Origin: Verrucomicrobiota bacterium
GTDB lineage: Bacteria; Verrucomicrobiota; Verrucomicrobiia; Verrucomicrobiales; DEV007
Assembly: GCA_020630975.1 (NCBI GenBank)
Contig: JAHDID010000061.1
Coordinates: 1 to 34,448 of the forward strand
DNA length: 34,448 nt
Reading direction: 5' to 3'
Positions 5,915-34,190 of this stretch are shown here, in pieces (position 1 is the first letter of the stretch; the number at the start of each line of letters is the position of its first letter). The notes beneath the pieces are model-generated. The model was not told the origin of the DNA and made no database searches. It was given only the letters and a program-made list of their open reading frames with translations. Position numbers and translations under genes: made by a program.

Positions 5915-6412
5915 CTACGGCGCCATCTTCTCCACTGGCAGCCCCTTTTGCTCCCAGCCATGGATACCACCATCCAGGTGATAGATCGTCGTGATGCCTT
6001 GCTTCTTCAGAGCTTCCACTGCTTTCCGACTGCGACCGCCGTCGGCTCCCATTTTTCAGTAGACCACGTAGGGTTTGCCGTGATCGATCTTCGCCAGCTC
6101 CGCTTCGAAGTCAGGATCGGAAATCGGACAGTGAACCGCATCGGCAATGAAACCAGCATCCCACTCCCCCTGAGTCCGCACATCGAGACCAATGGCTTTT
6201 CCCGAGTCTAGCAATGCCTTGGCCTGAGCTGCATCGAGATCGATGACTCCAGAAGATACAGCCGAAGCTGTGATTTGAGGAGGATTGGGCCTAGGAATAG
6301 GTTTTAAAAGAAACCACAAACCAGTGATCAAAACGATGTGTATCACGAAAAGAATTCCTATCACCATAAGACAGGAGGGCTTTTTTCGTGCTGTTGGGTT
6401 CTGGTCTGCCAT
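5915..6412 (-). CDS. Membrane-anchored rhodanese, candidate selenoprotein (UGA = Sec119)
   Basis: Read through one in-frame UGA (6056-6058), this gene gives 165 residues. It has one membrane segment (about residues 15-38), then a rhodanese domain with IDLDAAQAKALLD, LDVRTQGEWDAGFI, A-x-H-C-P-I and KPYVVY. After the UGA come KMGADGGRSRKAVEALKKQG, YHLDGGIHGWEQKGLP and a UAG stop. The UGA occupies the position of the catalytic cysteine of rhodaneses (VVYC-x-x-G...R-S). Conservation resumes immediately, in frame, with no other defect. A SECIS-like hairpin starts 10 nt after the UGA. I chose ATG 6412; a TTG at 6448, closer to a purine-rich stretch, would add 12 residues. The gene follows recR by about 43 nt. 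Alternatives are a recent Cys-to-stop nonsense mutation or a sequencing error. If it is a selenoprotein, it would transfer persulfide sulfur or handle selenium at the periplasmic face. Confidence 0.7.
6026..6045 (-). promoter_or_regulatory. Putative bacterial SECIS hairpin in the rhodanese mRNA
   Basis: Counting from the UGA, nucleotides 11-30 of the transcript fold as CCGAC / GTCGG (5 bp), one G-A mismatch, then GC/GC (2 bp), closing a GGTC loop. The loop begins 19 nt after the UGA and its first two bases are G. Bacterial SECIS elements lie just 3' of the UGA inside the coding region, with a small apical loop roughly 16-37 nt downstream and a G among its first two positions. The E. coli fdhF loop is similarly GGUC-containing. 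The fold was worked out by hand; no energy was computed. Confidence 0.5.
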
Positions 6413-18142: not shown

Positions 18143-19327
18143 ATGAAAAAGATCCCTATCGTAGCTCTCTGCGGCTTTCTCGGCTCGGGCAAGACCACTC
18201 TCTTGCGCCGCTGGCGTCGCGACGAGTCGCTCGCAGATGCCGCCGTGATCGTGCACGACCTCAGCGAGTTTGGCCTAGATGCCGAGCTACTCTCGGGAGA
18301 CGAGGCGACACCGGCAGCCGGTCAGCTCGATGGCAGAGTCGCAGCCCTGCACGGCAGCCACGCCCGCGAGCAACTGCACACCTCTGTAGGCTCTACGCTA
18401 GAGGCTATCTCGGCTCTCACCCCAGCGCCACCTCTGGTGCTCTGCGAGAGCACCGGTGCCGCTCGCCCATGGCCACTCATCAGCGCCCTCACTCAGGATA
18501 GCCGATATGAGCTCAGGCATTTCATCGTCACCGTCGATGCGCTCAATCTCCACCGCGACTTCGCCGATGGCCGGATGCTGACCGGCCAAGCGCCAGCTCC
18601 TGCAGACGGCGCTCTGCAGCAGGCGGCCGAGATCCTCGCCGAGCAGCTCCTGTTTGCCAGCGTGATCATCCTGACCAAGATCGACACCATCGACCAATCC
18701 ATCGTCGATGCGCAGGTCGAGACCCTACAGATGCTCCAACCTCAGGCCGCTATCGGGCTCTCTGCCCAGGCGGGGCTCCATATCCAGCAGCTCGATAGCA
18801 CTCCTGCGCCGAAGCTCAGAGAACTAACCGAGCGCGCAGAGAGATTTGGCCTGACGCAGGAGACCGCCACCCTCGACGATGTCGAGGCGATCGTGCTGCG
18901 CGATCCTCGGCCCTTTCACCCAGAGAGACTGCTCGCAGCCTGCCAAAACCACCTCGGCACCGGTCTCTACCGCACCAAAGGCTACCTCTGGCTAGCCTCT
19001 CGGCCCGGCGATGTACTGCTATGGCAGCAATCCGGCAGCCAGATCGCTCTCGAGCTGACTAGCTACTGGCGCGCCGAGCTAGTGCACAATCGCGATGGCA
19101 AGCTACTCGAAGAGGAAATCGAGATCCTGCAGAAACAACTCGAATCAGAGCACCCAATCTTCGGCGATCGCCACAATGAACTGACTCTGATAGGGCTCGA
19201 GAAAGATCGAGACGCCTTCCACACCGCGCTACTAGATGCGCTCTGTATGGAAGCAGAAATCACCGAGTGGCAAGCTGGCAAAACCTTTCCCGACCCGTGG
19301 CCCAAATCGATCCGGAAGATCGAGTGA
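18143..19327 (+). CDS. COG0523 (CobW/YjiA-type) GTPase lacking the CxCC motif
   Basis: A 394-residue P-loop GTPase. Walker A is GFLGSGKT (11-18), a HDLSEFGLD segment takes the switch I position (38-46), CESTG stands for the usual ESTG (100-104), and TKID replaces NKxD. The CobW C-terminal domain follows ([16 protein letters not shown], then FPDPWP near the end). COG0523 proteins use a G-C-x-C-C motif to bind metal; here that position reads [11 protein letters not shown] (69-79), with no Cys and three His (H70, H73, H79). Such GTPases are metallochaperones or metal insertases, often for zinc. A second paralogue with the intact motif follows directly. The gene starts 48 nt after the anchored protein gene, so it may read from the upstream operon. 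Confidence 0.9.
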
Positions 19328-19336
19328 TACATTCTT

Positions 19337-19357
19337 TAATGCAAGTTATTTGCATCA
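19337..19357. promoter_or_regulatory. Fur/Zur-type operator-like palindrome upstream of COG0523 gene 2
   Basis: TAATGCA (19337-19343) and TGCATCA (19351-19357) match as inverted arms at 6 of 7 positions around a 7-nt centre. The 17-nt core ATGCAAGTTATTTGCAT (19339-19355) matches 15 of 17 positions of the core upstream of the lipoprotein-ABC operon (28723-28739) when both are read toward their genes. Over 27 nt (19336-19362 against 28742-28716) 23 positions agree. It ends 26 nt before the ATG. Zur is the inferred regulator; no zur gene is in the window. Confidence 0.65.
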
Positions 19358-19383
19358 AAGGGGATTTGCCTGATGGTAGCCGC

Positions 19384-20604
<1,221 letters not shown>

Positions 20605-32643: not shown

Positions 32644-34104
32644 CTACGTCCCGCAAAAGGTCTCACAGACGACTTCCTCGGGCTGTGGTGCCTGCTCGAG
32701 ATCCGCATATTCAGCTCTCTCCTCAAAGGGCTTTGCTAATGCATCGACCAAACGATGGAAAGGTGCGTAATCACCATGCTGGTAGACGGCTTGAATCGCT
32801 TCTTCGATACGGTGATTTCGAGGAATCAAAATCGGATTCGCCGCCTGCATCATATCGACACGACTATCAGGACAGGACTCTTGTTGCCAACGGCCAAGCC
32901 AAGACTCAAATCTCTCACGATCGGAAAAATGAGCCTGTAACGCCTCCGCCTGGTGGCCTGCTGCTACCTGCGTGAGGTGGCGAAAGAACAAAGTAAAGTC
33001 CACCTCTTGATCCGTCAGTAAGTCGAGAGTATCACCGATCAACTCAGATGCACTACCTGAGTCCGAGAGACCAAGTTTTGCGCGAAACCGTGCATCAAAC
33101 CGTTCGGCGAACATCTCCTCAAACGGCTTCAAAGTCTCTTGGGCTATTTCAACAGCTTTTTCAGTCTCATCATCTAATAGAGTGAGCAGTGTCTCGGCGA
33201 ATCGACATAGATTCCATAGCACGATTTGGCCCTGATTACCCCAGGCATAGCGCCCGCCGGTATCGATCGAGCTAAAGACTTTCTCGGGGTGAAAGGTATC
33301 CACAAAAGCACAGGGCCCATAGTCGATCGTCTCTCCCGAGATCGCACAATTATCGGTATTCATCACCCCATGGATAAAGCCCAGCGACATCCAGTGAGTG
33401 ACTAAGTCGCACTGCGCCTCGATCACCCGCTCGAGTAGGGAGCGGTAGGGCGCCTCGGCTTGCAAGCACTCCGAGTAGTGGCGCTCGATCACATAGTCGG
33501 CCAGGATGCGTATGGCCTCGGTATCCTCCCGTGCGTAGAAATACTGAAAGGTACCGACTCGTATATGACTGCTAGCTACCCGCGTGAACACCCCACCTGG
33601 ACAGGGGCCCTCCTGGCGCAACACGCTCTCACCTGAAGCGACCGCTGCCAGCGCACGGGTCGTCGGTACACCTAAAGCAGCCATAGCCTCACTAACGATG
33701 TATTCTCTCAGTACTGGACCGAGAGCCGATTTGCCATCACCCCTTCTCGAGAAAGCCGTACGTCCCGAACCCTTTAGCTGCAGATCATAGCGATGACCGG
33801 AGCGATCAACTACCTCGCCCAATAGTATAGCCCGCCCATCACCTAGCTGCGGCACAAACCCACCGAACTGATGCCCAGCATAGGCCTGAGCAATCGGCGT
33901 CGCGCCCTCAGCGATGGCATTGCCCGCCAGTACAGCCAGCCCACTCTCGGTCGAGCCCAGCCAGTCAGCATCGAGTCCTAGTTGATCTACCAAGTCTGTA
34001 TTCAAGCGAATGAATTCAGGCGCTGACACAGACTCAGGTACCTCTTCGCTAAAGAAGCGAGCAGGCAGCTGTGAGTAAGTATTGTCGAAAGGGATCGTGG
34101 ACAT
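32644..34104 (-). CDS. selO: SelO/YdiU-family protein adenylyltransferase
   Basis: A 486-residue pseudokinase-fold protein that transfers AMP to Ser/Thr/Tyr of proteins (established for E. coli SelO). Landmarks: YAGHQFGGFVPQLGDGRAIL (about 77-96), LQLKGSGRTAFSRRGDGKSA (about 112-131), RVASSHIRVGTFQYF, HGVMNTDNCAISGETIDYGP (about 244-263) and FSSIDTGGRYAWGNQ. The C-terminus is VCETFCGT: the Cys three positions from the end occupies the site that is selenocysteine in vertebrate SelO, so here it is the Cys form. ATG 34104 is chosen; GTG 34137 with GGAGGG only 3 nt away is an alternative. It likely has a role in redox stress. A 39-bp repeat lies upstream. Confidence 0.94.
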   Translation of the reverse strand: MSTIPFDNTYSQLPARFFSEEVPESVSAPEFIRLNTDLVDQLGLDADWLGSTESGLAVLAGNAIAEGATPIAQAYAGHQFGGFVPQLGDGRAILLGEVVDRSGHRYDLQLKGSGRTAFSRRGDGKSALGPVLREYIVSEAMAALGVPTTRALAAVASGESVLRQEGPCPGGVFTRVASSHIRVGTFQYFYAREDTEAIRILADYVIERHYSECLQAEAPYRSLLERVIEAQCDLVTHWMSLGFIHGVMNTDNCAISGETIDYGPCAFVDTFHPEKVFSSIDTGGRYAWGNQGQIVLWNLCRFAETLLTLLDDETEKAVEIAQETLKPFEEMFAERFDARFRAKLGLSDSGSASELIGDTLDLLTDQEVDFTLFFRHLTQVAAGHQAEALQAHFSDRERFESWLGRWQQESCPDSRVDMMQAANPILIPRNHRIEEAIQAVYQHGDYAPFHRLVDALAKPFEERAEYADLEQAPQPEEVVCETFCGT

Positions 34105-34190
34105 ACCCCGGACTATACTACGAATCTCACCAAGCACACGCCCTCCATCTTCACTTGCTCAAACCAAGCACTCACAGCCTCCGGGGCACC

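Follow-up and report, generated by a model that had tools for sequence, protein, structure and literature searches.

A candidate selenocysteine rhodanese with a predicted membrane anchor in a Verrucomicrobiota bacterium

A rhodanese-like reading frame of a Verrucomicrobiota bacterium contains a single UGA codon, and this raises the question of whether the codon ends translation, marks a damaged gene or encodes selenocysteine (Sec). We analysed the whole stretch of DNA that carries the frame (34,448 nucleotides, referred to as the window) together with the genome of origin and sets of related genomes. Our data favour the reading that the gene is a functional Sec rhodanese in which UGA encodes Sec, and we put the probability of this reading at about 0.9. 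This preference is based on the location of the UGA at the catalytic Cys, on the full Sec machinery of the bacterium and on other likely selenoproteins in the same genome. Standard annotation would label such a gene a fragment or a pseudogene.

The UGA codon, the active-site loop and the downstream hairpin

5915 to 6412, minus strand: candidate Sec rhodanese gene, from ATG at 6412 to TAG at 5917-5915, 165 residues with UGA as Sec
5948 to 6232, minus strand: rhodanese domain PF00581, residues 61-155, Pfam 8e-18, spanning the TGA
6056 to 6058, minus strand: in-frame UGA at the catalytic Cys position, residue 119, an invariant Cys in aligned homologues
6032 to 6058, minus strand: active-site loop U-K-M-G-A-D-G-G-R, 3 residues longer than the usual C-x-x-G-x-R

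Translation of the minus strand yielded one internal stop of the rhodanese frame, the UGA at 6058-6056, and no other lesion was detected, in agreement with the first-pass annotation. The 46 residues that it gave between the UGA and the UAG were found as well, and the Pfam match runs across the TGA. With Cys in place of Sec, the protein passed the gathering score of PF00581 (65.2 bits vs 22.2), and conserved rhodanese residues persist in frame downstream of the UGA in both the alignment and the Pfam match. This continuation argues against a true stop, which would give a truncated membrane protein that lacks the second half of its rhodanese domain. A table-11 ORF that begins at a TTG and spans 130 aa does exist, but its product would end just ahead of the catalytic residue, and we consider this explanation extremely improbable.

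The UGA had been placed exactly at the active-site Cys of rhodaneses. In an alignment with nine homologues, residue 119 falls on an invariant Cys, and among the matches listed Cys was present at this position in 78 of 78 distinct homologues whose active site was read (28 + 21 + 8 new of 17, the other 9 repeating earlier genes, + 21; L041 and L068 were left out because of a contig edge). The homologues read thus carry Cys and no other residue at the UGA codon; homologues from close relatives were not found. The last 21 of the 78 are the listed matches that were flagged for a TGA and had not been read before, and the flagged TGA is their natural stop or, in L213, lies upstream. A rhodanese-like paralogue of the same genome (L004) also carries Cys at its active site. 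Nearly all homologues have the short loop C-x-x-G-x-R-S, whereas the sequence here is U-K-M-G-A-D-G-G-R-S. The two best solved structures (3tp9 and the first domain of 6mxv) leave a three-residue gap opposite this loop, and L167 shows an arrangement that is different again. Since two relatives from the class search (L054 and L055, see below) share the longer loop and have Cys in it, the UGA of this extended-loop rhodanese coincides, as judged by alignment, with the catalytic Cys.

In a Cys119 version of the gene, 52 single-base changes lead to a stop codon, 12 of them to TGA, and exactly one is the conversion of Cys119 to TGA. On sequence grounds, the codon position is strong evidence for Sec. 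The same count speaks against a fresh pseudogene, in which a nonsense mutation would have turned the catalytic Cys codon into TGA and no other lesion would have followed yet. It upholds one half of the earlier argument that chance would hardly produce both this codon position and a suitable hairpin. The other half concerns the following element:

6026 to 6045, minus strand: SECIS-like hairpin, 5+2 bp, loop GGUC, 18 nt after the UGA, moderate evidence

The stretch 6045-6026 folds as CCGAC-G-GC[GGUC]GC-A-GUCGG with 7 bp and -9.1 kcal/mol. The 5+2 bp stem and the GG-starting four-base loop are as first described; the spacing is 18 nt and not 19 nt, a figure that counts the first base of the loop. 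According to the Fig. 2 legend in the accessible portion of PMC13188914, bacterial SECIS elements have a loop of 3-9 nt, a stem of 4-16 bp, a G in the first two loop positions, a spacing of 16-37 nt and an MFE <= -7.5. The rhodanese hairpin lies within these limits. When our loose version of the bSECIS model was applied to the window, 446 of 1117 TGA trinucleotides passed (40%), the rhodanese site included; among Cys homologues the figure was 18 of 49, and among synonymous recodings 282 of 400. With respect to the hairpin, the chance argument is therefore weaker than claimed. RNA folding near the UGA gave a divided answer: the best fold contained the hairpin in two of the three stretches tried, but the 51 nt from the UGA favoured another fold. 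Compared with shuffled sequences, none of the three stretches was more stable (z -0.22, -0.89, -0.58).

More restrictive loop criteria gave lower background rates, which are not clean p-values because both criteria were set once the rhodanese hairpin was known, and the second one after two peroxiredoxin-like genes (see below) had been seen. When the loop had to begin with GGU, 32 of 1117 window TGA sites passed (about 3%; 26 of them at the energy of the rhodanese hairpin or better); none of the 49 Cys homologues did, and among synonymous recodings 19 of 400 passed (10 at equal or better energy). With N-G-U at loop positions 1-3 plus a spacing of 16-26 nt, 33 of 1117 TGA sites passed, again none of the 49 Cys homologues, and 70 of 1000 recodings. 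E. coli fdhF is one model for the GGU loop test. The test also rests on the bSECIS model text in the accessible portion of PMC13188914. Taken together, the hairpin lends moderate support, in the range of about 3-7%, and is no proof by itself.

Selenocysteine decoding and peroxiredoxin-like UGA genes in the genome

The genome is a draft of 7.14 Mb in 158 contigs and is 95.8% complete. A search for selA, selB, selC (tRNA-Sec) and selD had been set beforehand as a possible refuter of the Sec reading. All were found over curated cut-offs, and the bacterium thus has the full Sec machinery. For tRNA-Sec we obtained 58.6 bits (Rfam cut-off 47), and ARAGORN reported SeC with the anticodon TCA; 5 of 14 control genomes also scored above the cut-off with this model, so the match cannot decide the matter by itself. 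The two pieces of SelB together scored 296.5 bits (cut-off 242), SelD 301 bits (cut-off 125) within a 763-aa frame, and SelA 522 bits (cut-off 268), a level above cut-off in 1 of 14 control genomes. Of the 132 genomes in the relatives set, own genome included, 57 gave a selA match, and of the 33 genus members among them, 24 did.

Other selenoproteins were sought in the genome by one family, AhpC-TSA, and an internal TGA was found in 2 of its 19 matches. One of them (L108, G000:C84:16880-17410) reads AFTGGUTKQC, and the other (L112, G000:C101:10544-10924), a membrane-protein-like gene with a Prx-type domain, reads YRGYWUPFC; in both, the UGA is located at the catalytic Cys. The two proteins resemble thiol peroxidase models and score below every curated cut-off. 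A hairpin follows the UGA in each gene, with a GGU loop 24 nt downstream in L112 and the loop CGUGA 21 nt from the UGA in L108. The motifs are similar to the TxxU and UxxC peroxiredoxin-type motifs in the tables of PMC13188914 and PMC9312934, as far as these sources are accessible.

Protein matches to L108 were obtained in 21 of 71 genomes, its own genome among them, and 20 of these matches carry the motif (L193 is without it). In these 20 genes (L108 and its relatives L174-L192), the codon in question is TGA in 14 cases and TGC or TGT in 6. All 14 TGA genes keep CCGTGAGAG downstream of the UGA, and their folds show the loop CGUGA in 13 cases and GUGAGA in one (L192); as the conserved hairpin stretch is also coding, part of this conservation may serve the protein. 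Among the six Cys genes, the CGUGA hairpin is kept in two (L178, L184) and gone from four. SelA turned up in 13 of 14 genomes with a TGA gene, the exception being a 720-contig draft (G038), and in 4 of the 6 genomes with a Cys gene; the two without selA (G001 and G015) are also without the CGUGA hairpin. In our view, the L108 series independently supports a reading of UGA plus hairpin as Sec in this lineage. With U and C forms both present among related genomes, the family offers a natural test of the retention and loss of a SECIS hairpin.

These findings bear on two of the alternatives. That the genome decodes Sec and holds two further genes in which UGA occupies a catalytic Cys position argues against a fresh pseudogene. 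It might also be suspected, as the genome is a draft in 158 contigs, that the TGA is a base error in the assembly and that an ordinary Cys rhodanese with TGC or TGT at this codon lies behind it. Such an error must strike one particular base, and TGA stands at the catalytic Cys of the two other genes, with the TGA of one of these conserved across other genomes. We regard a sequencing or assembly artefact of this kind as very unlikely.

Membrane anchor, gene neighbourhood and distribution of the rhodanese

6305 to 6373, minus strand: predicted N-terminal membrane anchor, residues 14-36; helix in the model, membrane character from sequence

Single-sequence fold prediction of the whole rhodanese was poor (mean pLDDT 60.3, pTM 0.42). 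For the anchor helix 14-36, the block means of pLDDT were 84, 95 and 76. Residues 21-55 of the anchor region share 54% identity with a segment of two further proteins encoded by the genome, and because of this resemblance the rhodanese protein may be a fusion.

Those two proteins (L002, G000:C106:5492-5596, and L003, G000:C128:61623-61727) are near-identical long proteins with PRPNPPQITASAV in common. Both PRPNPPQITASAV and the hydrophobic segment before it are shared with the rhodanese anchor.

The rhodanese start follows the recR stop after 43 bases on the same strand. In the genus search, the closest match of the window's recR was found in a genome of the same genus (78%), which fits the contig belonging to this genome. 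Elsewhere in the window, positions 18143-20604 carry what we take to be two adjoining CobW-like GTPase genes, with GCICC in the second and apparently missing from the first, and positions 32644-34137 presumably encode a SelO/YdiU-like protein with the C-terminal end CETFCGT.

Among the matches read from 141 relatives, 384 class and 387 phylum genomes (overlapping sets, own genome included), we saw no other UGA rhodanese, and hence the UGA was not seen conserved. A protein-pattern scan of genome contigs returned 134 pattern matches and no confirmed relative, with patterns that have Cys for Sec and could miss UGA forms; a scan with a TGA-containing pattern returned 26 loci and no rhodanese in the frames judged by eye, with a fixed motif that could likewise miss UGA forms. 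Plasmid records gave 42 entries with a protein match, none over 80% of the query, and no DNA match. In these searches, a close orthologue of the rhodanese, whether with Sec or with Cys, was not found. Within about 1.5 kb of recR, a match to the rhodanese was present in 0 of 29 other genus loci examined, a count that leaves out two of 32 recR matches without a locus. Since the gene is missing beside recR at these loci, it may be dispensable. This pattern and the lack of a Sec relative are what a fresh pseudogene would predict; weighed against the codon position and the Sec decoding of the genome, we judge a pseudogene improbable, more probable than the two other alternatives.

Proposed function and comparison with known selenoproteins

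If the gene is a functional Sec rhodanese, SelB with Sec-tRNA-Sec would read the UGA at codon 119, aided by the downstream hairpin. The product of 165 residues would then carry a selenol as nucleophile where other rhodaneses have the catalytic thiol. The N-terminal helix would hold the protein at the membrane, with the rhodanese domain probably on the outer face, and the basic residues ahead of the helix suggest such a location outside the cytoplasm. Sec at the base of the loop would most likely attack a sulfane-sulfur or an oxidised-thiol substrate, and a thiol acceptor would then receive the sulfur from a Se-S intermediate. Both sulfane sulfur transfer and thiol redox are considered as roles.

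As to the origin, a tentative scenario, to which we give somewhat less than an even chance, is that of a separate, recently arisen Sec rhodanese. An extended-loop Cys rhodanese would have been joined to the anchor shared within the genome, and Cys would then have changed to Sec in a Sec-decoding lineage, with a SECIS hairpin over the codons of the loop extension. If real, the gene adds a membrane-anchored Sec rhodanese, and, as the 78 relatives read all have Cys, it may show an exchange of Cys for Sec close to the time at which it arose.

The gene had been described as an unusual selenoprotein, and this holds in part. The accessible portion of a 2026 review (PMC13188914) lists five rhodanese-like selenoprotein forms, two of them with UxxG; earlier reports are found in PMC1088965 and PMC2398784, and such proteins are also listed in PMC9312934, each source being accessible in part. 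A Sec rhodanese is thus of a rare though already known kind, and the novelty here is modest: the anchor, the longer loop and the lack of any Sec relative found. The term 'verrucomicrobi' does not occur in the accessible text of PMC13188914, PMC9312934, PMC2398784 and PMC5029168, and among the papers listed in a literature search, none is, as judged by its title, on verrucomicrobial selenoproteins. Forms 2 and 4 of the review (UxxG, PF00581) share with our protein the rhodanese domain, the UGA at the catalytic position and UxxG (here U-K-M-G), a likeness by motif, drawn from the accessible portion of PMC13188914. The rhodanese scores below the curated cut-offs of form 3 (NF041203, LYCAU; 47.2 bits vs 115) and of form 5 (NF045694, TsoB; 24 bits vs 805).

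The best non-self match of the class search (L054, genome G478) has 47% identity over the matched part and the same longer loop (CAAGTPGGRS), and L055 (genome G487) has 42% identity over the matched part and again this loop (CASGSPTGRS). They differ from the rhodanese studied here by Cys in place of UGA and by another N-terminus. The peroxiredoxin-like genes L108 (TGGUT) and L112 (WUPFC) share with it the UGA at the catalytic Cys and an NGU- or GGU-loop hairpin 18-24 nt downstream; they belong to another protein family. For L108, the hairpin tip is kept in relatives.
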